This document shows, piece by piece, positions 139 to 63,735 of a stretch of DNA of 64,000 bases; within the stretch, counting starts at the first letter, position 1; each line of letters opens with the position of its first letter. A program made the position numbers and the translations under genes. The notes beneath the pieces were generated by a model. It saw only the letters and a program-made list of their open reading frames with translations, was not told the DNA's origin and made no database searches. Source of the stretch: Desulfamplus sp. (GTDB lineage: Bacteria > Desulfobacterota > Desulfobacteria > Desulfobacterales > Desulfobacteraceae); assembly GCA_015232455.1 (NCBI GenBank), contig JADFZQ010000017.1:1-64000 (forward strand), read 5' to 3'.

Positions 139-236
139 GCATAACGCCCAGGGTAACCTGCCGCCGCCACTGAACTTGCCGCGACTAGTGCAATGCTGCT
201 CTGCTCTCGGCGGTCAGGTTGACCCACTTGTTAGCT
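139..236 (-). repeat. attC-like recombination site (integron cassette boundary)
   Basis: Read on the minus strand, the site starts with a simple core AGCTAAC (230-236). It ends with GTTATGC (139-145), close to the GTTRRRY consensus. Inside are long imperfect complementary arms (GGGTCAACCTGACCGCC against GGCGGCAGGTTACCC), as expected for the folded bottom strand of an attC site. It lies directly downstream of the minus-strand ORF ending at 319, where a cassette attC should be. It shares the 15-mer CCGCCACTGAACTTG with the palindromic site at 63678-63735. The assignment rests on pattern only; no integrase is in view. Confidence 0.75.
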
Positions 237-318: not shown

Positions 319-897
319 TTAATGACAAACTTTTTGAATTATTACTTTATCAGATATGGTTATATCTTCTGGCAAGTTGCTTATAACCACTCCCGAGGAA
401 TAGCGTTGCTTAGTAATTGCAGCAAATATTATATAAAATTTATTTCCGTCGTTTTTATTGCCAATTGTCACATGGGGGAAATATGCAGTCTTGCTAATAA
501 TGTCATCATTTTGAACTGGCTTACTTGACACCCACCATTCATTGCCACCATTCACTTTGACAAATATCGTTATTGATTCATCCTTATTTAGGCTGGCATT
601 TACTTTCACTAAAGCATCAAAGCTTACTTGTATATCTGTGTTATCAGTATCTATTTCGCTGCAGTTACTTATTACTTCGTCATTGGTCGGTCTTATTATT
701 GTTAATGACTGAGTTTTCATAATAGAAAATCCCAATACAATGAGCGATATTGTTAGCAGCAACAAAGATGTTTTTGCTAACGTTGATATATTTAGTTTAT
801 TTTCTTTAACTTGGAATCTTGCCCATACGACAACAATAATAGACAGGACAACTCCAATTAAACTAATAATCAGTGATGAAATTTGTAAAATTTCCAT
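319..897 (-). CDS. cassette-encoded membrane-anchored hypothetical protein
   Basis: A 192-residue protein of no family I recognise. Two hydrophobic segments (about residues 5-27 and 42-62) flank a short charged loop. The remainder is a soluble domain rich in beta-type sequence, probably outside the membrane, with NGGNEWWVSS in its middle. The start codon overlaps the stop of the upstream ORF (TAATG), so the two are translationally coupled. Both lie between attC-like sites at 1258-1351 and 139-236 and so form a two-gene cassette. The pairing with another small membrane protein suggests a complex, but no function can be assigned. Confidence 0.7.
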   Translation of the reverse strand: MEILQISSLIISLIGVVLSIIVVVWARFQVKENKLNISTLAKTSLLLLTISLIVLGFSIMKTQSLTIIRPTNDEVISNCSEIDTDNTDIQVSFDALVKVNASLNKDESITIFVKVNGGNEWWVSSKPVQNDDIISKTAYFPHVTIGNKNDGNKFYIIFAAITKQRYSSGVVISNLPEDITISDKVIIQKVCH

Positions 898-1220
898 TAT
901 ATATTTTTCCCTTCTTTCATGAGTACAGCGATTGAACTAACCCACCCGAAGCCAGCAGTTAGTGCTTCAATCGAATTAGAGGGGTGGAATAAAATGGTCC
1001 CAACGATTGAACCAGTTATTATCACTATGAAGAAGTCTACTCTATAATAGAAAAGATCATTCTTTTGAGGAAAAAATTTCTTAAGAAAGCGGGTTGTTCC
1101 TTGGAACCCCTTTTGATTTGAAAATACATACATCACTACACATCCAAACAATGTAATTGCATAATATAGCAGTGGTTGGAAATATGTATGCTTAACAATC
1201 GCAGATAAGAGATTTTCCAT
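897..1220 (-). CDS. cassette-encoded small integral membrane protein
   Basis: A 107-residue hydrophobic protein with about three predicted membrane helices (residues 15-33, 60-80 and 84-102), separated by a basic stretch around RFLKKFFPQK. No family is recognised. It is the first gene of a two-gene cassette and overlaps the next start by one base. The attC-like site at 1258-1351 ends 38 bases upstream of its ATG, the usual short spacing in cassettes. Small multi-helix proteins of this kind occur as toxins, holin-like proteins or defence subunits, but nothing here decides between them. Confidence 0.65.
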   Translation of the reverse strand: MENLLSAIVKHTYFQPLLYYAITLFGCVVMYVFSNQKGFQGTTRFLKKFFPQKNDLFYYRVDFFIVIITGSIVGTILFHPSNSIEALTAGFGWVSSIAVLMKEGKNI

Positions 1221-1257
1221 TATTCATCCGAATAAGCTTAATTATTGATCCGATAAA

Positions 1258-1351
1258 GCTAACCGGCGAGCAACCACGCCGTCTATGAACCACAAAAATG
1301 GTAAAAAATAAGTTGGCGTGGTTGCTCGTCGGGTTGAGTGCTGGGTTAGAT
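1258..1351 (-). repeat. attC-like recombination site
   Basis: On the minus strand the site opens with ATCTAAC (1345-1351, a perfect RYYYAAC core) and closes with GTTAGCT (1258-1264). The arms CGAGCAACCACGCC and GGCGTGGTTGCTCG are perfectly complementary and enclose an AT-rich loop of about 40 bases. Its length of 94 bp lies within the known attC range. It touches the stop codon of the ORF at 1351-2493 and precedes the ORF at 897-1220, exactly between two cassettes. Confidence 0.8.
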
Positions 1352-2493
1352 TATTTATTCCATGTATCCTTAGCTTTCCATAAATATCCTGCATCATTAT
1401 TAAGAAGAATTTCATTCTCTTTTAAATCATTTGTACCTTGACTAAGTAGTGCATTTCCTAAAACACATAATATTGACATTGGGTTTTCAATAGCTGACAA
1501 AATTGAAGCCACAGTTCCTTTTTTAGCACTTTCAAATATCGGTTCTGATGCTCTTTTTAACCAATTGAATTGATTATTTCTCCTGTGTAATAATATTTCA
1601 TTGTTTATACCTTTGAAGTCTTTAGCTATTTTTGAAGAGTGTTTTGTAAGTATTTTATTTTGATCAGAAGGATCCATCTGAAGTTCTACAAGAAATTCTC
1701 TATAACTCATAAGAAAGTTATCAAGGAGATCCTTATTGTTTTTCCTGAAATTAATTATTTCACTTATTGGCACTGTTGAAATATTAAAAATTTTCAAATT
1801 AAATATCTCATGCAGTAAACCACCTCCTGCTAACCTTCGTATAATCGGCGACTCTTTTACTGGGATAAACTTCTTTTCATTGGCATGAATGACATACTTA
1901 GAATACATGCTATACAGAAATTTATCGTTGCTATCAGACCATATCATAGATGAATTACTTTGTTTGCAAGTCTTTAGAACCTCTATTAATCGATACATAT
2001 TGATATATAAATGAAATAATGTGATGAAATATTTTTCATGTTCTGGAAATTTTTGTATCAACTCATCAAACCGAGTAAACAACGTACCCACATTTCCAGA
2101 AAATTTTACATTTAGTGTTTTAAATATTTTATCTACTTCAGAATAGTAATTATCATAGTATTCTTTATCCTTTGCTTTTGCTACTGAATTAAGTTTATAG
2201 TGAACAGGTTCACAGGAATCAATTATTTCTTTAAACTCATCTGTAATTACAGCATCCAGGAAAATTAGATTTTGAATCTCATGATTTATATTTGTGAATA
2301 CTTTCTTTCCTTTCTTTAAACCTTCTATGCTCTCTTGGGAAAGATAGTCTAAATTGTTTGTGCTTAATATAGCTAGGGGCTTCTCAATAAATAATAAAAT
2401 AAATTTCATTTCCAGCATAAATTGCAAAATGTCTTTTTGCAAAGTTACTGTCATAGAATTAGGAATAAGAGGAATCGTGCCTTCAAGTGTCAT
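1351..2493 (-). CDS. cassette-encoded hypothetical protein
   Basis: A 380-residue, probably soluble and largely helical protein with no motif I recognise. Landmarks are a glycine patch IRRLAGGGLLHEIF near residue 220 and a mildly hydrophobic C-terminal segment (about 330-350, SILSAIENPMSILCVLGNALL) that might contact membrane. Its ATG lies 27 bases from a GTTAGAT core (2520-2526), with GGGAGG 14 bases upstream as a somewhat distant ribosome site. Its stop abuts the attC-like site at 1258-1351. It is read as the second cassette of the left array. Function unknown. Confidence 0.65.
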   Translation of the reverse strand: MTLEGTIPLIPNSMTVTLQKDILQFMLEMKFILLFIEKPLAILSTNNLDYLSQESIEGLKKGKKVFTNINHEIQNLIFLDAVITDEFKEIIDSCEPVHYKLNSVAKAKDKEYYDNYYSEVDKIFKTLNVKFSGNVGTLFTRFDELIQKFPEHEKYFITLFHLYINMYRLIEVLKTCKQSNSSMIWSDSNDKFLYSMYSKYVIHANEKKFIPVKESPIIRRLAGGGLLHEIFNLKIFNISTVPISEIINFRKNNKDLLDNFLMSYREFLVELQMDPSDQNKILTKHSSKIAKDFKGINNEILLHRRNNQFNWLKRASEPIFESAKKGTVASILSAIENPMSILCVLGNALLSQGTNDLKENEILLNNDAGYLWKAKDTWNK

Positions 2494-2519: not shown

Positions 2520-2550
2520 ATCTAACGACCGGCTTGCACGGCGGCGGCTT
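2520..2550 (-). repeat. partial attC-like site (3' half)
   Basis: Read on the minus strand, this is a GC-rich half-site, GCCGCCGCCGTGCAAGCCGG, followed by TCGTTAGAT, which ends in a perfect GTTRRRY core. The matching RYYYAAC half is not seen. The stop codon of the preceding ORF (2552-2554) falls just before the half-site. Either the 5' half was deleted, or the ORF now runs into the former site. The GC content contrasts sharply with the AT-rich ORFs on both sides, as is usual for attC sites. Confidence 0.5.
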
Positions 2551-2551
2551 T

Positions 2552-3529
2552 TTATCTTATGAATTTTCTCTCAATGACATAAAATAGGGCATTTACTATT
2601 TGTTGATACAATGTTTCATAATTTGCCGATGTGTTAAAAATGTTGTCCCAGACAAGATTATGCCCTGTGGTGTTTCTTAACCGTGCTGTTGCTGTAAATG
2701 CGGTGATAAATGAATCGTCATTAATTGCATCCAAAATATCTTGGAGTGATTCAGCATGGGTTTGGATTCCTTGGCTAAAATCATTTCTAAAAGATGTTGT
2801 AAAAAAAACATTTCCCAAAACATTTACGGGAGTTCCATCATCTTTTGTAGGATATCTATTTTTCAATAGTGACTCAAAAATCAACCCACCGCCAAACAAA
2901 TGGGAGATAATTGGACCAAGGGAACTACCTTCTGTGCTACGAAGGTTTAATTCAATGACTCTCTCAGTTTTTTCCAATAAAAATATATAGAATGCGGAAA
3001 CAATAGTCCGTGTTTGTGGATCTTGAATTAATGTTGAAACAAATTTGTCAATGAAGCCTGCTATGGTAATTGGAGCTAAGCCAGAAATTTGGTTAAACCG
3101 ATTAATCTCATGCTCAAGCAAGTCTCTTATTGTTGAAATAATTCTTCCCGCGACATGTTGCTGTTGTGTTAATGTCAAAAATTGAGCGCCAGGCAAATTA
3201 ATCCAATTTCCGCCAGCATTTTTAACATCTTCTGAGATTGCAGCGTCTAAATAATATAGGGCTTTTTCGTAATTTCTTAAATCAAAAGCCAGCCATGATA
3301 AAAAGAAAAATGGAGTTCCTTTATGAACTTGCTCATACTTTTGTTGATTCCTTTGCCGCAATCGTTGAAGTAACTCCTCATAATCATTAAAGCGCTCATG
3401 AGGCTTGTTTGTGGCATTAATAAGATTGCCTGGACCAAAGGTGGAAAAGAAATTATCCCCTTGTGCCAACGGGAGATGATCAAAATGTTGTAATGCCAAA
3501 TCCACTAGTGGAGTAGTGAGAAAGTACAT
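2552..3529 (-). CDS. first cassette ORF of left array, hypothetical protein
   Basis: A 325-residue protein, apparently soluble and helical, of no family I recognise. A tryptophan/tyrosine-rich stretch (LSWLAFDLRNYEKALYYLDA, about residues 77-96) resembles one tetratricopeptide-like helix pair. A later GPIISHLFGGGLIFESLL is loosely like the GGGLLHEIF patch in the neighbouring ORF at 1351-2493; both read GGGL(I/L)xE. The ATG follows AGGAGAT at a good distance and lies 23 bases after the hairpin leader ending at 3552. It is therefore the promoter-proximal gene of the array. Function unknown. Confidence 0.65.
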   Translation of the reverse strand: MYFLTTPLVDLALQHFDHLPLAQGDNFFSTFGPGNLINATNKPHERFNDYEELLQRLRQRNQQKYEQVHKGTPFFFLSWLAFDLRNYEKALYYLDAAISEDVKNAGGNWINLPGAQFLTLTQQQHVAGRIISTIRDLLEHEINRFNQISGLAPITIAGFIDKFVSTLIQDPQTRTIVSAFYIFLLEKTERVIELNLRSTEGSSLGPIISHLFGGGLIFESLLKNRYPTKDDGTPVNVLGNVFFTTSFRNDFSQGIQTHAESLQDILDAINDDSFITAFTATARLRNTTGHNLVWDNIFNTSANYETLYQQIVNALFYVIERKFIR

Positions 3530-3551: not shown

Positions 3552-3669
3552 TAACCATTTATTATCAGGTCATTCTTACCTGATAATACCTTACATTCCA
3601 TATTATCAAGGAAACATTTCCTTGATAACACCCTAAATCACAACTTATCAGGTCAATCTGCCCTGATAA
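3552..3669 (-). repeat. array leader, copy 1: three hairpins ending in a GTTA core
   Basis: A block with three perfect or near-perfect palindromes at 3562-3586 (TTATCAGGT arms), 3603-3628 (TTATCAAGGAAA arms) and 3645-3669 (TTATCAGG arms). Aligned by eye with 59982-60099 in inverse orientation, about 105 of 118 bases match. Similarity ends at ATGGTTA on the cassette side, where GTTAACT/GTTAGGC resembles an integron core. The block precedes the first cassette gene in both arrays. Possible roles are an attI-like site, an operator cluster or a structured mRNA leader. Confidence 0.8.
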
Positions 3670-3793: not shown

Positions 3794-5071
3794 CTAAAAA
3801 TTCTCTCCAATCAAAGATTGAACCTCAATAGCTATTACATTCTCAAGATAATATAGTTGCAGAAGATTAAATCTTGCTTCAGCATAGAGAAGGTTAAAAT
3901 CTCCAACTCGTGTTAAAGTTATTGTTCCATTAAGGTAAAGCCCCCTTGCATCTTCATAGTTGTCATTTGATAAAACAACGGTCTCTTCTTGGAGTTTAAT
4001 TCTTTTATTTAAACTATCAACTTCAGTTCTAAGTTTGTTTAATATGCCTGAGATAGATTTTTCAGCTTGACGCAAAGTTGCTTCACGGCTCTTTTTATCT
4101 GCTCTTGCAGATGCAATGTTTGCATCAATGGTACCGCCATCATAGAAATTCCAACTCATTTGTGCTCCTACATTCCATGATGCCTCCATATCTTCGGCTT
4201 TTTCTCCGATATACTCTGTTCCAGCAATTAGAGATAATGCTGGCTTTGATTCATCTTTTGCAATACTTAGGCTCTTTTCTGCAACACTTACGGCTTGTTG
4301 AGCTTTTTTTATGTCAATTTGTTGCTTCTCTTTATAAAGAATCTCAAGTTTTGTCAGCTTTTCATTAAGAGTCTGAGGACGTATAAGACCTCCTTCTGGA
4401 ACTAAAAGTGTTTGAGTCTCTTCGCCTGTTTCGCCAATAGCCAAGTTAAAGTCAACAAGTGCTGTATGAAATTCACTCTGACCAGAACTTAAGGCATCTT
4501 CTGCAACATGAAACTGAAGTTTTGCCTCTCTTACATCTAAGTTTGTAACCATTCCAGCTTCAAAAAGGTCTGTTGCATCGTTTAACTCATCAGTTCTTTG
4601 TTTTACCCTATCTTTTAGGACAGTTATTCTTGCCTGTTGATAAAGAACAGCAAGAAAAGCATTAGCTACTTGTTTTGAAAGATCGCGTTTCATTGAGCTT
4701 TCTTGTGTTTGTGCAAGTTTTATTAGGTTCTCTTTTAACGCACGGCTTTCACTTATTCTATCTCCTGCCCACAAAAGTTTACTTGCAGTTAATTCAGTTG
4801 ACATCTGACGATCTGGTGTTGCAATAAATGGATTATCTTCGGCAGTAGTTCCAAGTTCATAATACTTAACTGAGGTATCTACCCTTGGCTTTGTAAAGGC
4901 ATCAACTTTTTTAGCTTCAGCATCTGAGTATTTACGACTCTCTTCAATTACTCTTGCCTGATCAGAAGATGACAGAGCCTTTTTAATAGCATCTTCAAGC
5001 GTTATTGCATTAGCGTAACTGCTGCAAAATAGAGTAAATATTAATATTGTGAATTTAATATTGTTCATCAT
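3794..5071 (-). CDS. TolC-family outer membrane efflux protein
   Basis: Outer-membrane channel of a tripartite RND pump. The start is placed at the ATG at 5071 because TAGGAG lies 10 bases upstream and a typical signal peptide follows (NNIKFTILIFTLFCSSYANA, cleaved before ITLEDAI). The upstream in-frame ATG at 5134 lies within a dispersed palindrome. ITLEDAIKKAL is the usual TolC-family opening. Two long helical repeats follow, with the characteristic glycine/asparagine turns (LFEAGMVTNLDVREAKL and YLNGTITLTRVGDFN). Its length of 425 residues suits the family. It is the last gene of an operon with the adaptor and the pump. The substrate cannot be predicted. Confidence 0.93.
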   Translation of the reverse strand: MMNNIKFTILIFTLFCSSYANAITLEDAIKKALSSSDQARVIEESRKYSDAEAKKVDAFTKPRVDTSVKYYELGTTAEDNPFIATPDRQMSTELTASKLLWAGDRISESRALKENLIKLAQTQESSMKRDLSKQVANAFLAVLYQQARITVLKDRVKQRTDELNDATDLFEAGMVTNLDVREAKLQFHVAEDALSSGQSEFHTALVDFNLAIGETGEETQTLLVPEGGLIRPQTLNEKLTKLEILYKEKQQIDIKKAQQAVSVAEKSLSIAKDESKPALSLIAGTEYIGEKAEDMEASWNVGAQMSWNFYDGGTIDANIASARADKKSREATLRQAEKSISGILNKLRTEVDSLNKRIKLQEETVVLSNDNYEDARGLYLNGTITLTRVGDFNLLYAEARFNLLQLYYLENVIAIEVQSLIGENF

Positions 5072-5122
5072 AACTATTTTTCTCCTAAAAAAATTATTAA
5101 TTTTCCTGTTTTTGGAACATAA

Positions 5123-5150
5123 GTAAAGATGCACAACCGTTCGTCTTTAC
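5123..5150. repeat. dispersed GTAGAGAC-type palindrome (degenerate copy)
   Basis: GTAAAGATGCAC and the partner TCGTCTTTAC form an imperfect hairpin around AACCGT. It sits in the 120-base gap between the pump and channel genes. It belongs to the family also found at 11497, 18805, 22202 and 48840. With no strong T-tract it is more likely a REP-like element than a terminator. Confidence 0.6.
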
Positions 5151-5191
5151 AGTTTAAGATTTGATTCAAATTACTGAGTAATAAAATATTT

Positions 5192-8100
5192 TTAAATAAA
5201 ACGAGATGTTACCCACGCTTTAATTTTTTCTGTTATCTCGTACTCAACTGGAACAAAAAGAAGTATTAATGTTGTTGCACTGGACAGTCCTGTTACAAAA
5301 GCTGTTGCCATAGGTGCCCAAGCTACTGATTTTTGAGGAATTCCAATGACCATTGGCAACATTCCCAATATGGTAGTAAAAGTTGTAATTAAAACAGGTC
5401 TCATACGTGCCTTAGATGCACTAATTACAGCTTCACGCAATGACAACCCTCTTTTTCTCTCTTGATTCATAAAGTCAATCAACACAATCGCATCATTTAC
5501 AGCAACTCCAGCCAACCCCACAACTGCAAGAAAACTGCCTATTGTAAACACAGAGCGGGTAAAAAACATTCCAAACACTACGCCGATAAATGCAAATGGA
5601 ATTGCTGACAGAATAATGAGAGGCTGTAGATAATCGTTAAATTGGGAGGAAAGCACAAGATAGATTCCCATGACAGCAATCAAGAATGCAAACATCAAAG
5701 ACTTATACGCTCTTGATGTGCTTTCAAACTCTCCGCCAAAATTTAAAGTAACCCCGGGATACATTGGAGCAATTTTTTCAAAGTAGTCTGATGCAAGAAC
5801 AGTAACTCTGCCTGCTGATAACTTTGAACCCTCTTTAATATCTGCGGTAATTGTAAGAGTCGGTTTTCCATTATAACGGTTTCGTATATCTGGCTCTTGA
5901 ACATAGTTTGCTGTGGCAATATCACCAATATAAATTGGAGTGGAGCTATGTTCAATTATTGGAACTTCAAGAATATCAGTAGGTGCTGTAATACCCGATT
6001 TTTTTATATATTGCTCTGAGCTTGAAATTGTGGAGATGTTTTGCTCTTTAGCATCAATTAGTTTGCTTGTTGGATTTATACTTTTCTCTGAATTATCCTC
6101 AACTCTTGCAAGGCGGACTAAAATTGGAATCTCTTCGCCATCAACTCTAAAATTACCACCGCTCATTCCATTTAAAGTGCCTGCAATCAAGCCTGTTGCC
6201 ATTCTTGTGTCCAATCCATAAACAAGAGCCTTTTTCTGATCAACTGTGTGGCGAACAACTGTCTGGTTATCTGCACGGTTATCATCAAGGTTTACAAGGT
6301 CTGCAAAAGATGGGTCTTTTTTTAGATATTCAAGCATCTTGTCAGATAGAAGTTGAGCCTCCTCAATTGTGCCTGCTGAAATTCTAATATTTACAGCTTT
6401 TCCAACTGGAGGTCCTGTATTTTCGCCAAACACATCCATTACAGGACGACCTCCCCACTCTTTATGGTGAATCTCTGCAAACTTTGCAAGTCTATCTCTT
6501 ACAATATCAAGATAGGCATTTACATCATTATCTTTTACATCAGGAAGGTTCATATCTTCTTGCGACGGCATCTCAACGACAATATTGCCGTAATGCTGAG
6601 ATCTATGCTGCTCATAATCTTTAGTCTCCATCATACCAGCAACACCGTTGACACTTCCAACTTCATCTTTCCCAAAAGAGAGAAGATAGTTAGACATATC
6701 ACGAATAACCTTGTCTGTCCCTTCAACAGAGATTCCAGGGGGCATTTTAAATGCAATGTGATAACGCAGATAGCTGTCTTCAAAGAATTTAACTTTAATC
6801 AATGGAACAAGTCCAGTTACAGATAAAAGCATCATTGCTAACGAAACCAAAAACAGAGCTGTAACTAAAAATATGCCAGTGATTTTATGGTTAAGAAGAA
6901 ATGCGAGAATTGAATTGTAGATTTTCCACATCAAACTAAAAAGATTGGCTCTAATGCTATTATTTTTTAAATTTTCTATATTGTTTTCTGATAAATCCTT
7001 TTCTATCAATTTTTTTTCTAAGACATCCGTTTTTATAGTAACAGCCTCATCCCTTTTTGGTCCCCAGTCAATAATATGAATAGGCAGACAGAAAACAGCT
7101 TCTGTCAATGACGCACACAAAGCAAAGGTTACAGCTTTGGGGATAACGCTGAAAAAATCTCCTGTTGTGCCTGTCATAATAAGCATTGGTAAAAATGCGA
7201 GAATTGTAGTCAAAGCTGAACTTGAAACAGGAAGGATAACTTCTGATGCACCGTCAACTACAGAATCATGAAGTGTTTTTCCCATCTCAAAATGGCGATA
7301 GACATTCTCCACAATGATAATTGCATCATCAACAATAATTCCAGAGACAAGCACAAATGAGAAAAGGCTGATTGTATTGATAGATTGCCCTGAATATTTG
7401 ACAATAATCAAAGTTACAAGAAACGAAAACGGAATGCCGATAGCTGTGAGCATGGCATTCCTAAATCCAAGTGTAACCCATAAAATCAAAGTAACTAAGA
7501 TCATTCCAAGAATTAAATTGCCGCCAAGAGTATTTACAGATTCGTTTATCTCAACTGTGGAATCATAGGTTGTGATAATAGAGAGTCCATCTGTTTTGTG
7601 CTTTTCTTCATAAGATTTGACCATCTCTTTAACTCTCTCTGCAATGGTTACAGAGTTTCCGCTATCCTCTTTTTGAACTAACAATTTTATAGTGCTGATG
7701 CCATTCACAGAAGGTATGGTGTCAGGGTCTCTGTGTCTAACTCCTGACGAGGTTGTTAAATCCCGAACATGGATAAAGTTGCCGTCTCCATCTTTTCTTA
7801 CCACAACGTCAAGAACCTCCTCTTGAGAATCAAGAGTGCTGCCAGTATCAAGCATCATATTTTGATTGCCCTTTTTAAAGCGACCAGTTGGAATGCGTGT
7901 GTTGTATGATTTGATTGCGTTGGCAACTTCATTAAAAGAGACTCCTATATCACGTAACTTTACAGGGTCAATATTTACATGAAACTCTTTTTCATATTCT
8001 CCAGAAATATCAACAGATTGAACTCCGTCAATTTTAATAAGATTACTTTTAAGCTCATCAGCCAAAAGTTTGAGAGTTCTATTTTCAAGCTCACCAATAA

Positions 8101-8533
8101 GGTTGACCACAATTACAGGTATCCACATCTTTGTATCAACATAAAAAAAGAGCGGATCGTCCACTCCTTCTGGCAGTTGATTCTTGATATTCAATACGCG
8201 AAATCTAAGTTCATCGTAGAGGGTTTCGTAGTCTGTATCATCTAAAAATTTAACCTCAACCGTTGATGCGTTACGCCGAGAACGGGACTGGATATATTCA
8301 ACATTTTCAAGACCATCTAACGCATCTTCAATCTCATTGGTTACTAAATTTTCCACATCATCAGCAGAAGCACCATAATATATTGTTGTGATAAAGACTT
8401 TTCCCATATCAACAGGCGGCATATTTTCAACAGGCGTTGTTAAAAGGCTGAATACTCCGGCAACTGTTAAGATAATAAAGATAACATTAATAAATACAGT
8501 CTGTTTAAGTGTAAAACGGACAAAGGATTTCAT
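5192..8533 (-). CDS. RND-family efflux pump, inner membrane subunit
   Basis: Proton-driven exporter of the AcrB/HAE superfamily, about 1113 residues. The start at 8533 is favoured by AAGGAATAACCCC just before ATG and by the opening MKSFVRFTLKQTVFINVIF, which begins the first membrane helix. Helix 4 carries VSGIIVDDAIIIVEN with the aspartate pair at about residues 402-403, matching the AcrB proton-relay pair. Helix 10 has GLAGVAVNDAIVLIDF. A hydrophilic insertion follows helix 6 (around DEAVTIKTDVLEKK), and the periplasmic loops are somewhat long. The gene starts four bases after the adaptor stop, so it is cotranscribed. Confidence 0.95.
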   Translation of the reverse strand: MKSFVRFTLKQTVFINVIFIILTVAGVFSLLTTPVENMPPVDMGKVFITTIYYGASADDVENLVTNEIEDALDGLENVEYIQSRSRRNASTVEVKFLDDTDYETLYDELRFRVLNIKNQLPEGVDDPLFFYVDTKMWIPVIVVNLIGELENRTLKLLADELKSNLIKIDGVQSVDISGEYEKEFHVNIDPVKLRDIGVSFNEVANAIKSYNTRIPTGRFKKGNQNMMLDTGSTLDSQEEVLDVVVRKDGDGNFIHVRDLTTSSGVRHRDPDTIPSVNGISTIKLLVQKEDSGNSVTIAERVKEMVKSYEEKHKTDGLSIITTYDSTVEINESVNTLGGNLILGMILVTLILWVTLGFRNAMLTAIGIPFSFLVTLIIVKYSGQSINTISLFSFVLVSGIIVDDAIIIVENVYRHFEMGKTLHDSVVDGASEVILPVSSSALTTILAFLPMLIMTGTTGDFFSVIPKAVTFALCASLTEAVFCLPIHIIDWGPKRDEAVTIKTDVLEKKLIEKDLSENNIENLKNNSIRANLFSLMWKIYNSILAFLLNHKITGIFLVTALFLVSLAMMLLSVTGLVPLIKVKFFEDSYLRYHIAFKMPPGISVEGTDKVIRDMSNYLLSFGKDEVGSVNGVAGMMETKDYEQHRSQHYGNIVVEMPSQEDMNLPDVKDNDVNAYLDIVRDRLAKFAEIHHKEWGGRPVMDVFGENTGPPVGKAVNIRISAGTIEEAQLLSDKMLEYLKKDPSFADLVNLDDNRADNQTVVRHTVDQKKALVYGLDTRMATGLIAGTLNGMSGGNFRVDGEEIPILVRLARVEDNSEKSINPTSKLIDAKEQNISTISSSEQYIKKSGITAPTDILEVPIIEHSSTPIYIGDIATANYVQEPDIRNRYNGKPTLTITADIKEGSKLSAGRVTVLASDYFEKIAPMYPGVTLNFGGEFESTSRAYKSLMFAFLIAVMGIYLVLSSQFNDYLQPLIILSAIPFAFIGVVFGMFFTRSVFTIGSFLAVVGLAGVAVNDAIVLIDFMNQERKRGLSLREAVISASKARMRPVLITTFTTILGMLPMVIGIPQKSVAWAPMATAFVTGLSSATTLILLFVPVEYEITEKIKAWVTSRFI

Positions 8534-8537
8534 GGGG

Positions 8538-9713
8538 TTATTCCTTTTTAGCAGGCGGTTCAATCAATATCATATTTGGCAAAAGGTCGGGCTGCTCTGC
8601 AACTATTAGATATTCACCAGCTTTATCGAGAATATTTATACTCAATGGCTCTGTCTTTCCCTTTACATAGATTTTTGGATTTTCATACCGATTTTGAACA
8701 GCTTTTGCAGGAATTTTTAACCCTTCTGTTTTAACAGAAAGCGGTAAAATAAAGCTCAAACCTCCACGATGTTCAAAATCTGAACCGTTACCACCTTCAA
8801 TTTGGTTATTATCTGCAATTGGGTTATCCTTCTCTTTTGGCTTACTTTTTTCACTATTGTGGTTAATCAAGAGTTTTATCTCTGTTTTACGAGTCTGTTC
8901 GTTAAAGTCCGGGTTAATATAATAGATTGAAGCCTTAACTGTTTGGTTATCAAGTGCTGCCTTAAAAGTTCTGCCCAATCCTTTTATAGCATCAAGTTCT
9001 TCATTAGATAGAGAAAGTGGCACAACAAGCTCTCTAAAATCATGAATGACACCAATAGGAATACCAGCCTGAATCATCTCTCCAGCTTCAACTTTTTTAG
9101 CTGTAACTATCCAGCCAGCATTACCCCAAATAGTGTGCCTTTTTTTTCTCTCTATCAACTGATTTAAGCTCACATCAAGAGTCTCTTCTGACTGTTTAAC
9201 TGTTTCTCTTTCTAAAACCGCCTGTTCCAACTCTTGAGAAGCAGCATCACGGATAACTTCAGTTGCTCTTCCTTTTGTAAAAAGCTCCTCTTTGCGTCTA
9301 AACTCTTTTCGTAAGTATGCAATTCGAGAATCTATCTGTTTTAATTGGGTTTTTATCTTCGAAATGGCAATTTTAGTGCTTTGAATTTCAAAATCAACAA
9401 ATGTGGTGTCAATTTCAGCAAATGGGGCAAAGTTATTGTTAGATTCTAATTTTGGAGCAGCTTTTATAGTATCTCCAATCTCATAGTTCACTTTAACAAC
9501 TCTGCCGTTCACTTCAGATGAAATAGTAGCTGACTTTATGCTTCTTGTATAACCTCTGATTTCAACCTCTTTGGTTGCATTCTCAACTTGCCACTCTTGT
9601 TCAAGTGCAATTGCTTCTGATGTAACTGTAAAAGGTGAAAGGGCTATTGATAGGAAAGATACTATTATAAGGTATGGTTTTATAGCGTTTCTAATAGATA
9701 TGATGCTTTTCAT
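8538..9713 (-). CDS. RND efflux periplasmic adaptor (membrane fusion protein)
   Basis: HlyD/AcrA-type adaptor linking the pump to the outer-membrane channel. The start at 9713 uses GGAGGG upstream and gives a signal-like helix (IKPYLIIVSFLSIALSPF). The alternative ATG at 9734 overlaps that ribosome site. A barrel-sandwich half (VNGRVVKVNYEIGDTIK, about residues 52-68) precedes a long helical hairpin (about 95-180) and a return lipoyl half (GWIVTAKKVEAGEMIQAG). A low-complexity acidic/basic linker (KSKPKEKDNPIADNNQ) interrupts the beta-barrel region. First gene of the operon adaptor-pump-channel. No regulator gene is adjacent. Confidence 0.9.
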   Translation of the reverse strand: MKSIISIRNAIKPYLIIVSFLSIALSPFTVTSEAIALEQEWQVENATKEVEIRGYTRSIKSATISSEVNGRVVKVNYEIGDTIKAAPKLESNNNFAPFAEIDTTFVDFEIQSTKIAISKIKTQLKQIDSRIAYLRKEFRRKEELFTKGRATEVIRDAASQELEQAVLERETVKQSEETLDVSLNQLIERKKRHTIWGNAGWIVTAKKVEAGEMIQAGIPIGVIHDFRELVVPLSLSNEELDAIKGLGRTFKAALDNQTVKASIYYINPDFNEQTRKTEIKLLINHNSEKSKPKEKDNPIADNNQIEGGNGSDFEHRGGLSFILPLSVKTEGLKIPAKAVQNRYENPKIYVKGKTEPLSINILDKAGEYLIVAEQPDLLPNMILIEPPAKKE

Positions 9714-9775
9714 ATATAATGTTTTACCCTCCATTTAATCTGTTTAAGGGCTTTGCATAACACATCTATTTTTGG

Positions 9776-12378: not shown

Positions 12379-12411
12379 AGATTTGACAACTTTTTAAAAG
12401 TTGTCAAATCT
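12379..12411. repeat. dispersed GATTTGACAAC-type palindrome (perfect copy)
   Basis: Perfect 16-base arms, AGATTTGACAACTTTT and its complement, surround a single T. Related palindromes lie at 21813, 29214 and, more loosely, 30581, all intergenic. A 3' T-tract is lacking, so I call it a dispersed repeat that may also stop transcription. Confidence 0.8.
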
Positions 12412-14879: not shown

Positions 14880-17012
14880 TTGAAACAATCTGAAAAAAGC
14901 ACTTTATCAATCGTTAATACGGACAATATTGATATAACTCGTAACGATATTGTCCACAATTTTTTGCTTACCAAGAAAGAGAGTGAGCAATTTGGATATA
15001 TTGCTATAAAGCGAGGATATGCAACAGTTCAAGAGGTTAAATATGCACTTGAGCAACAACGGCAGCTCTTTCGTGAGAAAAAGATCAAAAAAATGATAGG
15101 AGATGTACTTGTTGGCTCTGGTGTTCTAACAAATGAACAACATCAAAATATTCTAAAAGTTCAGCGGCTTATCAAAATAAAAAGAGAGGAAAAAGATGTA
15201 GCAAACAATGAAAATAAGGAGAATAAAGAGGTTGGCTCTCAAAGCTATGATAAAGATAAAATAGATAACAGAATAGACAGACAAATAGATAACAGAATAG
15301 ACAAGCAAATAGACAACAGAGTTGAGGTAACAATATCTGCAAATGGAATGGAAGCATGGGTGAAAATCGTTATTCCCCAAGATACTTCAGATTCAAACAT
15401 TTCGGACTTCAATACTGCAGAATTAACCACAGATGCTCTAAATTCTAATGTGCCAGATACAAATTCTCCTGATTCCAATATGTCAAATGCAAGTTCTCCA
15501 GAAAAAGAGAAGCCCATTACACTCACATCAATTAAATCAGCACTTGCAAACAAAGGGGTTAAGAATGGTATCTTAAGTGATGCTATTCTACAATCTCACC
15601 TTGACCGAAAAGATGATTTTTTTCCAGCAGCAGTTGGAAGCTATGACTACAGCTCTTTACCTGAATTTCAATTTTTTGCAAATAATAACAAAACTAATAT
15701 TGTCGATACAGATAACAATACTTCAATTGAGGATTTTATTATCGATAGCCCCATTATAGGTTCGGATATTGTCAAAAAAGGTAAAGCACTTGCAGTAATA
15801 AGCTCTGAAAAGGTTCAAAACAAAGTTCAAGATGTTTTTGGAAAAATCGTCAATATAGATAATTTTCAGTTAAATCCAAATATTGATTCCTCTTTAAAAT
15901 CACAAGAGATAGATAACCCAAAAGAGATAAACAGCATAAAAGAGATAGACTGCAATTATAGTAAGGCATCTCTAATGTTTCGTTGTGGAAAGTGGGTAAG
16001 CATTTCGGAATTTTCTGAAGATAAGTTAAGTATAACCGCAGAACAAAGCGGCTATCCAGCACTCTCAATTGAGGGTAAATTCTACATTTTTCCAGTTGTA
16101 AATGTGCTTGGAGATGCTGATTTGCGTTTTGGGCAAATCGATCAATATGCAAGTTTAAACGTGTCAGGAATACTAACTGGTGCATACCCCGTGAATGTAG
16201 GTCAAGTTAAAGCAAACGAAATACGCGGGGCTAATGTCTTATCAATTGGAGATGTCTCAGTTGAGATAGGCATTATTAACAGCCGAATTAAAACACAAGG
16301 AAATGTTAGGGCAAAATATATTCATAATTCACGCATTGAAGCATTTGGCGATGTGGTTGTTGACCATGAAATAATTGATTCAACAATTATTATCAGTGGA
16401 AAATGCAATGTCTCTAAAGGAAGAGTCATTGCCTCAAGAATATATGCTAAGATGGGAATTGCAGCTATTCGTGTAGGAAGCAATATTACAGAACCATGCG
16501 TCATAAGCGTAGGGTGTGAAGAGCATATTGCTATTCACTCACTTGAGATTAATCAACAGATCAACAACATAAGAAAAGAACTTGATGAGCTTATTAAACA
16601 GAGAGAGAGTCTTGATAGTCAGATAAAAGAGATATTTGAAAAGATGGTAGAGCTTAAAGTTGGTTATGACAAAGAAAGTGCTAATCTAAAAGAGATGGTA
16701 GAGCTTAAAGCTGATTATGATAAAGCAAATGCTAATCTAAAGCAGATGGTTGAGATTCTCAAACAGCACAATAAACAGAAAAAAACTCTCGAACTTAGTT
16801 TAGAAAAAATTGAAACTAATATAAATAAGGTTAAGCCAAAGGTTAAAAGGGATATAGCCCAGCTTGAATTAGATAGAAATATTTTGTTGAGATGGGCAGA
16901 ATCAAAATCGCCTCTCCCTGAAATTAAAGTTTCTGGCAGGTTATCTGATGAGACTGTTGTTAAAGGCTTTATAAATACGGATTTACTAACGCTCCATAAC
17001 CACACTATTTAG
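14880..17012 (+). CDS. DUF342 / FapA-family protein with N-terminal adaptor domain
   Basis: A 710-residue cytoplasmic protein. Residues about 35-95 form a helical domain (GYIAIKRGYATVQEVKYALE, IGDVLVGSGVLTNEQHQNIL) like those at the N-termini of type II secretion/pilus ATPases. A low-complexity linker follows, with tandem DNRIDRQ/DNRIDKQ repeats (about 122-145). The DUF342 beta-helix lies about 395-560 (GDVSVEIGIINSRIKTQG, ASRIYAKMGIAAIRVG). A C-terminal coiled coil contains a duplicated MVELK-YDK-ANLK unit (about 590-625). Members are called FapA and are linked to flagellar or surface assembly. The start is an apparent TTG, 16 bases after the pta stop, so the two are probably cotranscribed. 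Confidence 0.82.
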   Translation: MKQSEKSTLSIVNTDNIDITRNDIVHNFLLTKKESEQFGYIAIKRGYATVQEVKYALEQQRQLFREKKIKKMIGDVLVGSGVLTNEQHQNILKVQRLIKIKREEKDVANNENKENKEVGSQSYDKDKIDNRIDRQIDNRIDKQIDNRVEVTISANGMEAWVKIVIPQDTSDSNISDFNTAELTTDALNSNVPDTNSPDSNMSNASSPEKEKPITLTSIKSALANKGVKNGILSDAILQSHLDRKDDFFPAAVGSYDYSSLPEFQFFANNNKTNIVDTDNNTSIEDFIIDSPIIGSDIVKKGKALAVISSEKVQNKVQDVFGKIVNIDNFQLNPNIDSSLKSQEIDNPKEINSIKEIDCNYSKASLMFRCGKWVSISEFSEDKLSITAEQSGYPALSIEGKFYIFPVVNVLGDADLRFGQIDQYASLNVSGILTGAYPVNVGQVKANEIRGANVLSIGDVSVEIGIINSRIKTQGNVRAKYIHNSRIEAFGDVVVDHEIIDSTIIISGKCNVSKGRVIASRIYAKMGIAAIRVGSNITEPCVISVGCEEHIAIHSLEINQQINNIRKELDELIKQRESLDSQIKEIFEKMVELKVGYDKESANLKEMVELKADYDKANANLKQMVEILKQHNKQKKTLELSLEKIETNINKVKPKVKRDIAQLELDRNILLRWAESKSPLPEIKVSGRLSDETVVKGFINTDLLTLHNHTI

Positions 17013-21812: not shown

Positions 21813-21845
21813 AGATTTGACAGCTTTTATAAAGTTGTCAAATCT
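21813..21845. repeat. dispersed GATTTGACAAC-type palindrome
   Basis: AGATTTGACAGCTTT pairs with AAAGTTGTCAAATCT, with one mismatch in the arms and a short TATA-type centre. It lies between the ACBP gene and the HDOD gene. It matches the perfect copy at 12379-12411 at most positions. Confidence 0.75.
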
Positions 21846-29213: not shown

Positions 29214-29246
29214 AGATTTGACAAATTCTAAAAAGTTGTCAAATCT
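29214..29246. repeat. dispersed GATTTGACAAC-type palindrome
   Basis: AGATTTGACAA and TTGTCAAATCT form perfect 11-base outer arms around an imperfect centre. It lies in the gap between secA and argC (both minus strand), 32 bases after the argC stop, where it could act as a transcription pause. Confidence 0.75.
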
Positions 29247-59981: not shown

Positions 59982-60102
59982 TCATCAGGTAAAGTTGACC
60001 TGATAAGTTTGGATTTAGGGTGTTATCAAGGAACTATTTCCTTGATAATAGGGAATTTAAGGTATTATCAGGTAAGAATGACCTGATGATCAATGGTTAG
60101 GC
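59982..60102 (+). repeat. array leader, copy 2: three hairpins ending in GTTAGGC
   Basis: Inverted counterpart of 3552-3669, about 89% identical by hand alignment. Palindromes lie at about 59981-60007, 60023-60048 (TTATCAAGGAA arms) and 60065-60091. The similarity to copy 1 ends at ATGGTTA (60094-60099), inside GTTAGGC (60096-60102), a perfect GTTRRRY core. The first cassette ORF starts 29 bases later. The three hairpins would also form in the transcript from the promoter at 59949. Confidence 0.8.
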
Positions 60103-60130: not shown

Positions 60131-61204
60131 ATGGAAGAGTACCTTAATGAAGCATTAGTTGATTACAGTGGAATCGCAAAAACTGTAAATGACTTATTAT
60201 CAAGATTTACCATACTCCAATTTTTAGACTTTTGTTCTTTAGTTGAGGGCATCGTCTTATATGATCGGCTTATTATGGTTGGTGGTGTCAACAGCAAAGT
60301 AGGTGTCCCAAATGACAACATTGAAGATAGATGGAATGAAGGATTAAAATTATTTCTGGATGAAAAAGTTATTGTAAAAGAAAGTCAAAGATCAAGTCCG
60401 CTTAACATCGGGCAAAAACCAGATAGAAATCAGATCAATAGAGACTCAAATTATAGTCTTGGATATACTTTAGTTGATGCATGGTATGAAACAGGTAGGT
60501 TATTAGGAGCTGAAAAGTTATACAGAAAAGCATCGCTTCCACTTCTTAGACAGAAGCCTTTTTATGAGAAATCTGCCCATGTTATTGAGGATCATTCTAT
60601 CTGTGATTTGTTTGGAAAATATAAAAACCTCAAGGAGGTTTTATCAACTATTCGTAAATCTTCTATCTTAACAACAATTCAATATATTTCTGTACCAATA
60701 CCGCCTTTACCGCTTCTAGTGATTCAACACAGTAATTCAGTACATGATCTTTTACGCTCAACCCTCGAAATTCGACATGAATATAGTAAATTAAGATTGT
60801 CATTGAGTGCTCTAAGACAGACTCTTGCAGATTTGACCATTCCACCAAACGAAAAATTGAAAGCTATATCGTCATGGACAAAAGCATGGAGCACATTGAG
60901 CAAATATGAAAACCAAGCAAGTTTTTTTGAAATGGCGGCAGCATCTAATAATATGCTTGATGTCACGAAATCACTTGATGGTATTGGCTTGGATTCATTT
61001 AAATGGTCCAAAATAATAGAAATGATGATAGGTAAATTTGAAAAAACATTTTATGAGTGGAAAATCAGACAGCTTCACAAATCTGCTAAACACTATATTT
61101 CAATACCTGAAAGTATGTTTGCATCTGAAATTAAAAGATTGTTTGGATACCAAGTAACTAAAAGCGATATCAATGTATTAAGGCAAGCAGGTATTGAAAT
61201 ATAA
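60131..61204 (+). CDS. first cassette ORF of right array, hypothetical protein
   Basis: A 357-residue soluble, mostly helical protein that I do not recognise. It has IAKTVNDLLSRFTILQFLDF at the N-terminus, a charged middle region with DRWNEGLKLFLDEKVIVKES, and a C-terminal half of long helices (EIRHEYSKLRLSLSALRQTL). It shares no evident similarity with the first ORF of the left array (2552-3529), despite the shared leader. AGAGAGAATT precedes ATG. A defence or stress role is plausible for a cassette gene but nothing in the protein shows it. Confidence 0.65.
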   Translation: MEEYLNEALVDYSGIAKTVNDLLSRFTILQFLDFCSLVEGIVLYDRLIMVGGVNSKVGVPNDNIEDRWNEGLKLFLDEKVIVKESQRSSPLNIGQKPDRNQINRDSNYSLGYTLVDAWYETGRLLGAEKLYRKASLPLLRQKPFYEKSAHVIEDHSICDLFGKYKNLKEVLSTIRKSSILTTIQYISVPIPPLPLLVIQHSNSVHDLLRSTLEIRHEYSKLRLSLSALRQTLADLTIPPNEKLKAISSWTKAWSTLSKYENQASFFEMAAASNNMLDVTKSLDGIGLDSFKWSKIIEMMIGKFEKTFYEWKIRQLHKSAKHYISIPESMFASEIKRLFGYQVTKSDINVLRQAGIEI

Positions 61205-61275: not shown

Positions 61276-62955
61276 ATGGATTTTGCTTATCAAATATTAA
61301 AAGACGCAATTATTGCTGTTCCTGCGATTAAATACGCTCTTGGTATAGCGGGTATTATTTCAGTTATTGCTATCATCAAAAGTTTTAAAATAGATTGGCG
61401 TATTGCATTTTTTGGCACTGTCATTATGTTGTTTCTGATGGTAGTATTGGTTATTTTTGCCAGATTGACTCAACAACAAGATATGAGTTTTCGATTACCT
61501 ATTCTCGTTTTTATCTGGTTTTCATTGTTACTGATGATGGCAGTTGCAATTATGCTTTTTACATCAGTTTTCTTCGCAAAGCCTCTTGATTTAAGGGCAA
61601 TACTTAATCCAAATCAAAAAGATAATTCGGATAGTAAAAAAAACGATAAAGAGAAAGTGAATAAATCTAACTTATTAACATTAAAGCCAAATATTACAAA
61701 TATTCATGTTCAATGGAAACATAATATACATGAAATAAACGGTATTAATTCGCATAATTGCGTTTTTGAGAATGATAATATCCCTCAGAAAGTCTTTTCT
61801 ATTGAATTGCTTGAAGAGCCTTTAATTCTGAGAAAGGAAAAAGATAAATTAACCGTCAATATAAACAGAAAAAATATAGAGTATGCTGTATATAATAATC
61901 AAGGAAAACGTGAATTATGTAAAAAATGTTTCAATAAACAGGAGCATATTGTAAATTTTGCTAAAGATGTCGATACCAAAGTACACGAATATTTTTTAGG
62001 AAAATCTGACTTTAACGAAATTGAAATAATTCTTAAAGATTTGCCACTGAGATGGTCATCTGGGGGGGTATTTTGCGTAGTAGATTATGATAACCGTGAA
62101 TGGACACCTTTTTTCTTCAGAGATATTGAGCCTTGTGGCTGGAACATACCTTTAGGAGGTTCAGAGAATCTTCAGGAAGTGAATAACCCATGGAATGCCC
62201 TTTGGCGTGAATTTATGGAAGAATTTTTAGTTCTTGCCGAAACACCTAAATCTGATTCAAAAATAAAGGTCAGAAAACCAGTATTTCCAAAAGTTAATGA
62301 ACTCACTTTGTCTTACAAATCAGCATTAAACCTTATGAACAAACATATTGATTTACGAAGAAATTTTGATAACCTTGACCTGATAATAAGTGATGATGAT
62401 TTGATAGATTATGACGTAGTTGAAACAAATACTATTCTGAACATTTCTTCGGATTTCTCTTCTTCTCAGTCAAAAAATATTTTAGTTGCAATCAATCCTT
62501 TTGAATTAGGCATTGAGGCTGTGGCTATCATTAAATGTAAATTCGATAAAAATGACTATCTGCTTGACGGTGAAATTATGGAACCGAAAGGCGGTATCAG
62601 AGAATTAGTCAGAATGCCTGTGGCACTAATATCTCATGATTATCTAAAAAAAGCGTTTGATAAGGATTCATTCAAATTAGAATACCAGGGTTTAAGTCAG
62701 GCTTCAGTAAAAAGGGATGATATTCCTAAAGATGATATTATAATTTTTGGGTGGGATATATCAAACAGATTATCAATTGTTGAAAACAAAAAAACTGGAA
62801 TGAGAACTGAATTTGAAAGATACAGGAAATGGAAAGATGATTTCGGTCTCTTTTTCATGAATAATAATCTTAATCAGTTTAACCAAGCATTAGGATTATT
62901 TACACCTACATCAGCAAAAATTTCAAGTTATTTTTTTGCACAAAAACAAGCCTAA
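61276..62955 (+). CDS. membrane-anchored Nudix-like cassette protein
   Basis: A 559-residue protein with three predicted N-terminal helices (about 17-37, 43-63 and 73-100), then a large cytoplasmic part. Residues 294-317 resemble a Nudix box: G-x5-E, then a nine-residue gap (seven in the standard motif) and REFMEEF, with Leu where the consensus has Gly. The preceding VFCVVDYDNREWTPFFFRD and GWNIPLGGSE are Nudix-like strands. A pair of cysteines (CKKCFN, about 215-218) might bind metal. GGGGAATAATAA precedes ATG. The stop lies within an attC core. It could hydrolyse a nucleotide at the membrane, possibly in defence; this is inference. Confidence 0.6.
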   Translation: MDFAYQILKDAIIAVPAIKYALGIAGIISVIAIIKSFKIDWRIAFFGTVIMLFLMVVLVIFARLTQQQDMSFRLPILVFIWFSLLLMMAVAIMLFTSVFFAKPLDLRAILNPNQKDNSDSKKNDKEKVNKSNLLTLKPNITNIHVQWKHNIHEINGINSHNCVFENDNIPQKVFSIELLEEPLILRKEKDKLTVNINRKNIEYAVYNNQGKRELCKKCFNKQEHIVNFAKDVDTKVHEYFLGKSDFNEIEIILKDLPLRWSSGGVFCVVDYDNREWTPFFFRDIEPCGWNIPLGGSENLQEVNNPWNALWREFMEEFLVLAETPKSDSKIKVRKPVFPKVNELTLSYKSALNLMNKHIDLRRNFDNLDLIISDDDLIDYDVVETNTILNISSDFSSSQSKNILVAINPFELGIEAVAIIKCKFDKNDYLLDGEIMEPKGGIRELVRMPVALISHDYLKKAFDKDSFKLEYQGLSQASVKRDDIPKDDIIIFGWDISNRLSIVENKKTGMRTEFERYRKWKDDFGLFFMNNNLNQFNQALGLFTPTSAKISSYFFAQKQA

Positions 62956-63009
62956 CCAAGCGGTCAAGCGGACACGGCTATCGCCGTGCCGCTTACTTTG
63001 TTGTTAAAC
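62950..63009 (+). repeat. attC site
   Basis: A 60-bp site with perfect consensus cores at both ends, GCCTAAC (RYYYAAC) and GTTAAAC (GTTRRRY). Inner arms AAGCGGTCAAGCGG(A) and CCGCTTACTTTG, and a central CACGGC-TATC-GCCGTG hairpin, complete a canonical attC. The upstream ORF stop codon is inside the left core. This is the best attC in the window and anchors the integron interpretation. Confidence 0.88.
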
Positions 63010-63144: not shown

Positions 63145-63636
63145 ATGTCCAAAATTCTTGGAATTGCTCAACTTGGTTGTTCAGTATTAAGAGAAAAATC
63201 AAAGCGTGTTGAAAAGTTATCTGAAATTAAGGAATTGATTAATGACTCAATTTCAACTTTGATAGACTCGGGAGGCGTTGGAATAGCTTCACCACAACTT
63301 TATCAACCTTATAGGTTTTTTATAATGAAACCAAATGCAGACGCTAAACCCATTGTGGTAATAAATCCTGAAATAATTAGAACTTCACATGAGGTAATTA
63401 AAAGTTGGGAATCATGTCTAAGCATTCCGGGTATCAGAGGTTTAGTTTCTCGATATCAATCAATATTAGTAAGATATGAAACGGAAGACGAAAATATTGA
63501 AGAAAAGGAAATTTCTGATTTTCAAGCAAGAATTTTTCAACATGAGTATGATCATCTTGATGGTTTGGTTTATTTAGATCGTTTAGACAATGTAAAAGAT
63601 ATTATTACTGAAAAAGAATATCTTAAAATAAGATGA
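63145..63636 (+). CDS. def: peptide deformylase-like protein in a cassette
   Basis: Removes the formyl group from N-terminal methionine of new proteins. All three metal-site motifs are present: GGVGIASPQ (residues 43-51, usually GIGLAAPQ), ESCLS with Cys91 (usually EGCLS), and QHEYDHLDG with His133, Glu134 and His137. Length 163 fits. A strong AGGAGG ribosome site precedes ATG. The replacements (Ser for Ala, Ser for Gly) and the cassette setting mark it as an accessory, divergent copy. The housekeeping def, normally next to fmt, should lie elsewhere. Confidence 0.9.
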   Translation: MSKILGIAQLGCSVLREKSKRVEKLSEIKELINDSISTLIDSGGVGIASPQLYQPYRFFIMKPNADAKPIVVINPEIIRTSHEVIKSWESCLSIPGIRGLVSRYQSILVRYETEDENIEEKEISDFQARIFQHEYDHLDGLVYLDRLDNVKDIITEKEYLKIR

Positions 63637-63677: not shown

Positions 63678-63735
63678 AAGCTAACATCAAGTTCAGTGGC
63701 GGGCAATAGCCCGCCACTGAACTTGATGTTAGCTT
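63678..63735 (+). repeat. perfectly palindromic attC-like site
   Basis: Twenty-seven-base arms, starting AAGCTAACATCAAGTTCAG, are exactly complementary around AATA. The cores AGCTAAC (63679-63685) and GTTAGCT (63728-63734) are attC-like, and the site lies between two cassette ORFs. True attC sites carry unpaired bases that set strand choice; none exists here. It shares CCGCCACTGAACTTG with the attC at 139-236. Confidence 0.7.

Follow-up and report, generated by a model that had tools for sequence, protein, structure and literature searches.

What is the block of about 118 bp, built around three palindromes, that heads two gene arrays in inverted orientation on one contig of a relative of the magnetic bacterium Desulfamplus, and how did its two copies come to precede different genes? 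We analysed the first 64 kb (hereafter the window) of this 69-kb contig, part of a draft genome of 4.35 Mb in 82 contigs with a completeness of 98.5%. The two copies (Table 1) form the longest inverted repeat within the window (3552-3667 and 59984-60099), 116 nt aligned at 90% complementarity and 56 kb apart, which is about what an earlier note on this DNA had reported (roughly 105 of 118 positions). Its three palindromes per block are present in both copies, and the match does stop at ATGGTTA in each, after which the one reads GTTAACT and the other GTTAGGC; the ORFs beyond are unrelated and start soon after each block. Searches of the window against Rfam and of plasmid records with the block returned no match.

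The identity of the block can be read from related integrons. A matching block lies 55 to 145 bp from an intact, divergently oriented integron integrase gene (intI) at G005:C77, G004:C77, G003:C215 and G017:C2, the last being Desulfospira joergensenii, and beside an intI with one internal stop at G005:C163; shared sequence among the integrons compared stops near the intI stop codon. Of 80 intI loci returned by the search, 50 were scored, and 33 of these carry the 18-base core of the block upstream of intI at 14 or more letters (shuffled, 2 in 1000), the remaining 17, some of them short or distant, falling below that level. This marks the last dyad plus AATGGTTR as the predicted attI core of this integrase group, and sequence comparison supports the block as a whole as the putative attI, or primary recombination site, of a Desulfamplus-type chromosomal integron. 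It lies between divergent intI and cassettes in relatives and, with intI reduced to remnants, at six of the 19 tabulated copies of this genome (C2, C6, C11:37271, C42, C55 and C81:92321, by tblastn with an intact relative), integron-integrase searches likewise finding divergent intI fragments beside several own copies. The attI-like reading of the earlier note is therefore strengthened by intact intI in relatives, as it is by the GTTR end, attC enrichment and RRRY match described below. Its remark that no intI is adjacent applies to the window copies, beside which, as elsewhere on their contig, none was found, and holds only locally, given the intact genes of relatives and the six remnants. 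The integron-integrase search detected no intact intI in this draft genome (best match 210 of 315 positions), for which reason action in trans on these sites is inferred; with 82 contigs at the completeness given above, both a missing gene and a dead system are possible.

The block proved far more numerous than the two copies previously counted. A search with the 18-base core CCTGATAATNAATGGTTR, allowing at most one mismatch, identified 20 sites in this genome and none with the reversed-pattern control. The same search found 11 copies in the congener G005, 4 in G008, 3 each in G004 and G007, 2 each in G009 and G003, 1 in G006 and 0 in G001 and G002, numbers that are lower bounds because most congeners are incomplete drafts of varying completeness. 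In an order-wide sample of 291 genomes searched at two mismatches, the core was present in 31, this genome included, with all controls at zero; this genome had 13 cores and no other sampled genome more than three (G005 lies outside the sample). Similarity was lost right after GTTR in 18 of 18 aligned own copies (L019 and L020, of the 20 loci, were left out as fragments), which is the pattern of many GTTR-ended copies followed by different ORFs that the earlier note had looked for; the right end reads ATGGTTR in 16 of these, ATGGGTA in one and ATGCTTA in one. Across 47 tabulated copies from this genome and its relatives, the next 300 bases past the site are shared by two pairs alone: 5C12/9C2, from two genomes and identical past the site, and 4C77/4C79, from one genome and identical over the 71 bases compared. 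Continuation into identical sequence, which would have spoken against the earlier reading, is hence confined to these pairs. Automatic placement of the crossover was off for C11b, 5C178, 5C12, 9C2, 9C147b and 4C54, and all of these other than C11b were retained as placed in the 300-base comparison. The left side is ragged: among own copies, homology to other copies is shortest at C41b (33 bp) and longest at C2, where intI is truncated (about 0.9 kb), so that the block has a fixed right end and a variable left end rather than the two fixed ends of a MITE or REP element. In one attI copy (L041, G000:C81:142275-142462), inserted sequence of about 67 bp separates the two halves.

Cassettes were sought with a directional attC scanner that required R boxes and a stem with one extrahelical base, its thresholds being set on the same data. 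On the strand of the site, the 235 kb downstream yielded 35 calls and the 268 kb upstream a single one, totals that double-count DNA wherever two copies share one locus, and shuffled downstream sequence gave 9 calls in 469 kb. Opposite-strand calls numbered 12 downstream and 4 upstream, and an earlier stem/bulge version of the scanner made 33 calls downstream and 8 upstream. A simple strict scan had made zero calls in the window and a relaxed one had performed at the level of shuffles; both were replaced. In the DNA examined, an attC was called at least once for 13 of the 19 own copies and for 20 among all 47. To this extent the downstream cassettes predicted by the earlier note were found; the other 27 copies, many on short contigs, had no call and in part match what the note had named as evidence against its reading.

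When a circular cassette is opened at G^TT and inserted, its RRRY comes to lie at attI and the complementary R'' stays in the attC of that cassette. Of 22 testable arrays, 10 had a junction RRRY that is the exact reverse complement of R'' in their first attC (shuffles: mean 1.3, maximum 7 in 20,000); 12 mismatched, window array 1 among them, and 25 of the 47 tabulated copies gave no attC. One of the misses, C22, probably has a false first attC (+163), and its next (+1055) would match; among the misplaced crossovers C11b alone was corrected by hand for this test, the other five being misses or without attC there. Consecutive attC pairs matched in 6 of 17 cases (shuffled mean 0.66, maximum 5 in 10,000). 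The RRRY match is the signature of IntI inserting a circular cassette and so supports insertion at the copies, whose loading by IntI is well supported. No intact intI stands beside any of the ten matching arrays in the DNA examined; one of them, 17C2b in Desulfospira, has a remnant.

The two window arrays differ in how clearly they bear this signature (Table 1). At copy 2 the RRRY of the cassette is complementary to the R'' of its own attC and at copy 1 it is not; a 5' half matching the partial attC after cassette 1 of array 1 was not found. The attC of cassette 2 in array 1, read by eye, has the R'' ATCTAAC, the reverse complement of its own GTTAGAT start, in place of which the scanner picked ACTCAAC at 1339. 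Array 1, with attC at 1351-1257 and 236-139, has the two or more attC without an integrase nearby that characterise a CALIN; array 2 reaches this number with the attC at 62950-63009 and a doubtful palindrome at 63678-63735. The latter may be an attC of unusual form or a hairpin resembling a terminator; its R'' mismatches the cassette start GTTAAAC, leaving the peptide deformylase cassette unmatched. Accessory deformylase cassettes in integrons, mostly of Vibrio, are reported in one study (PMC12690207). A PADLOC search of seven cassette proteins gave no defence match.

Table 1. Putative attI copies and cassette features of the window
Feature	Position	Strand	Description
Orphan attI, copy 1	3552..3669	-	Three dyads; crossover G^TTA at the 3552 end; reads towards lower coordinates
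Predicted attI core of copy 1	3552..3588	-	Third dyad plus AATGGTTA; portion kept beside intI in related loci
Second dyad of copy 1	3603..3628	-	TTATCAAGG..CCTTGATAA
First dyad of copy 1	3645..3669	-	TTATCAGG..CCTGATAA; changed or absent in a number of other copies
Array 1, cassette 1 ORF	2552..3529	-	325 aa; no Pfam, NCBIfam or PADLOC match
Array 1, apparent attC 3' half after cassette 1	2520..2550	-	Ends GTTAGAT; upper limit approximate
Array 1, cassette 2 ORF	1351..2493	-	380 aa; no family match
Array 1, attC of cassette 2	1257..1351	-	
Array 1, cassette 3	319..1220	-	ORFs 897-1220 and 319-897; no family match
Array 1, attC of cassette 3	139..236	-	R'' AGCTAAC matches preceding GTTAGCT
Orphan attI, copy 2	59982..60099	+	Crossover G^TTA at the 60099 end
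Array 2, cassette 1 first ORF	60131..61204	+	357 aa; no family match
Array 2, cassette 1 second ORF	61276..62955	+	559 aa; weak O-antigen-ligase-like match below Pfam cut-off
Array 2, attC of cassette 1	62950..63009	+	R'' GCCTAAC, exact reverse complement of attI junction GTTAGGC
Array 2, next cassette: peptide deformylase gene	63145..63636	+	NCBIfam and Pfam matches
Array 2, inverted repeat	63678..63735	+	Perfect, 27 bp, AGCTAAC..GTTAGCT; 4-base loop; AAC/GTT ends

Two further repeats of the window are recorded here in their own right. A 33-bp palindrome, AGATTTGACA-N13-TGTCAAATCT, occurs at 139 places in the genome (two mismatches; reversed-pattern control 0) and is a REP-like family; in the window it is found at 12379-12411, 21813-21845 and 29214-29246, twice between listed ORFs and once overlapping the start of an 89-aa ORF. 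A 51-bp tandem duplication at 16639-16740, 88% identical and a multiple of three in length, lies within the ORF at 14880-17012.

The dyads are a conserved property of the block. Folded as a single DNA strand, copy 1 forms three hairpins with an energy of -24.4 kcal/mol, far below 200 shuffles (-6.6 kcal/mol, sd 2.0; z = -8.7), and the dyad centres are about 41 bp apart, or roughly four helical turns. In 30 aligned copies of the 47, from which the structure itself was also drawn, the named pairs are paired in 87.6% of cells, dyads 2 and 3 being intact in 94-96% and dyad 1 paired in 71%. The covariation score (0.119, against 0.076 shuffled) was reached by 0 of 500 shuffles and exceeds that of all six slid versions of the structure. 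Pairs changed on both sides numbered 8; 11 of 500 shuffles had as many, and one slid version had more (10 pairs when slid by -2 columns, with an equal number of such cells, 21). As this slid version does as well on double changes, the structure is distinguished only by its fraction of paired cells and its covariation score. Conserved dyad symmetry is consistent with a dimeric protein or with folding of a strand. The integron attachment site attI1 has accessory sites and, by analogy, the three dyads are most likely extra integrase-binding repeats of attI, the simplest reading because the last dyad belongs to the attI core. The dyads belong to attI, and an operator role for them is putative. At copy 1 a promoter scan made 0 hits where 2.1 were expected, and the intact integron gave 3 against an expectation of 2.6; transcription from the block, with hits at or below chance, is thus unsupported.

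Whether the sites were filled at their present positions can be judged from loci shared between species. No empty site was found for the two window loci, whose left flanks are conserved and followed by different DNA in the relatives compared, and another locus (locus A, C11:196874) was therefore examined. A set of RND efflux genes (TolC-like, AcrB family and HlyD-like, 3794-9734) lies directly upstream of window array 1; these genes are conserved in several congeners, and the sequence after the TolC-like gene differs in the four compared. At locus A, block and cassettes separate a substrate-binding-protein-like gene from a permease-like gene, labels that are our reading of the sequence ends and were made without a family-library search. 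The two flanking genes are adjacent in G003 and about 120 bp apart in G001, in neither case with block or cassettes, a contrast between the empty and the filled state of one locus. In G004 and G009 the left flank is present, and core and right flank are absent from the DNA examined. Along 4.1 kb of left flank, ending at GTTR, this genome and G005 are 93.5% identical, and along the right flank 90-91%, whereas the stretch next to the site differs between this genome (about 4.9 kb in all) and G005 (about 2.5 kb). The two stretches are not different throughout: a segment of 0.5 kb close to the right flank recurs in both genomes, twice in this one, and G003 has a portion of it. In G007 the left part of the block can be followed to where the contig stops, and intI is absent from locus A in this genome, G005 and G007 within the DNA examined. 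Both flanks are also shared at C11a/5C178, with cassette stretches of 3.0 and 1.9 kb that differ, the 5C178 site being only 75% identical to C11a, and at C6/5C44, where the differing stretches measure 8.4 and 3.5 kb; at C11e/5C55 the left flank alone could be followed. At C6 (locus B), six other congeners have the left flank, with core and right flank absent from the DNA examined. Three loci thus carry different cassettes at shared positions in two species, differences that could also stem from deletions in a longer ancestral array.

We consider it probable that the block is the attI of this lineage in some twenty scattered copies, loaded by IntI, and that cassettes were most likely exchanged in trans by a recombinase encoded elsewhere. 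An integron integrase would have cut the copies at G^TT and inserted circular cassettes, and loaded copies would have come to head short arrays of their own. Many copies may descend from integron insertions with later loss of intI, after which the bare attI sites would have kept their competence, and their cassettes would most likely have continued to be exchanged in trans by a recombinase whose gene lies elsewhere in the genome. Of these elements, the attI identity, the number of copies, the signature of insertion, the locus in both empty and filled form and the differing cassettes at shared loci rest directly on sequence; action in trans, what the dyads do and the way in which the copies spread are inferences. 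That a remote IntI still loads the copies is likely, and this draft genome may itself have lost the last working intI. A more specific version, which we put forward tentatively, is a distributed integron in which one IntI acts on ten to twenty attI platforms along the chromosome, the evenly spaced dyads forming an extended attI that is active without intI in cis.

Alternatively, though this appears less likely, the sites could be fossils: about twenty complete intI plus attI insertions would have taken up cassettes in cis, lost intI and become frozen, the bare sites being inert today. The six remnants and the failure to find an intact intI here agree with such a history, as do C6 and C11a, where an intI remnant is kept in this genome and none in G005. 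It fits poorly with locus A, an intI-less site common to this genome, G005 and, as far as its contig end, G007, at which the cassettes of this genome and G005 nevertheless differ, and with the intact IntI that G005 still encodes.

It is improbable that the block is instead the 3' end of a mobile ORF-attI cassette, travelling with its upstream gene like the delta-attI cassettes of class 1 and 2 integrons. Those resemble the present copies in being extra full or truncated attI with a fixed GTTRRRY end, and according to PMC12901181 they are functional with IntI1, which excises and inserts them, an attI1-aadB-attI1 arrangement in mobile integrons showing 100% excision. A fixed right end with a variable left end is also what such cassettes would give, as are the tandem block-gene-block cases at C11e/C11f, C41 and G009:C147. 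However, the upstream DNA at the four loci common with G005 is conserved chromosome (86-94% identity), several left ends run into intI or its upstream region with no unrelated ORF, and delta-attI sites lie inside a mobile integron at the cassette 3' end, whereas those described here head arrays at separate chromosomal loci. Tandem site-gene(s)-site arrangements were recorded at L030, L043 and L111, with spacings of about 3.0, 0.8 and 0.7 kb; they are as expected if a gene between two attI copies is excisable.

The remaining explanations carry very little weight. A regulatory or REP/MITE-like repeat dispersed through the genome, with hairpins acting as operators and a chance position upstream of genes, would account for three conserved dyads in about 20 dispersed copies and is highly improbable given that the same sequence adjoins intI in relatives, ends on the right at GTTR, has no consistent left end and is accompanied by downstream attC enrichment and the RRRY match. 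Misjoining of contigs at a repeated sequence, suggested by the 82-contig draft and by copies near contig ends (C41, C42, C39 and C28), is hardly credible when three loci agree on both flanks with G005, which was assembled separately, junction and attC of the same cassette match, and copies 77-95% identical to copy 1 are not one collapsed repeat.

The reading of the copies as attI of one lineage, loaded by IntI, makes these multi-attI and largely intI-less cassette platforms, descended from one kind of integron, a variant of a known system. They share with sedentary chromosomal integrons an attI core with a GTTRRRY crossover, divergent intI in relatives, attC cassettes and the typical insertion signature, and differ in that about 20 attI copies occur in one genome, most without intI. 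CALINs are likewise cassette arrays away from intI and, in PMC12444791, are said to be mobilisable in trans, those of Xanthomonas at relatively conserved loci; unlike them, the arrays here are headed by a recognisable attI and may for that reason be insertion platforms, more than remnants. The genomic attG sites used by IntI, as far as the accessible sources describe them, also receive cassettes away from the integron, whereas they are unrelated genomic sequences and the present blocks are homologous to a full attI. In the open-licence literature on CALINs, orphan or duplicated attI, attG and action in trans we found no report of many attI copies in one genome, and in the open-licence literature no paper reporting an integron in Desulfamplus. 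According to PMC9024848, attI is poorly described outside class 1 and is undetected by IntegronFinder.

The usual picture of an integron is one attI beside one intI. About twenty attI copies in one genome, many heading cassettes of their own and most without intI, imply that some CALINs may be live platforms, not debris, and the conserved core provides a sequence handle for attI in Desulfobacterota and in relatives of this integrase, where it is poorly described. The orphan sites also make action in trans directly testable. Were a single IntI to serve these platforms as a distributed integron, cassettes could be placed in many transcriptional contexts, for example between the genes of locus A, instead of in one array. 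These findings suggest that a single gene-capture system supplied cassettes to many chromosomal sites.
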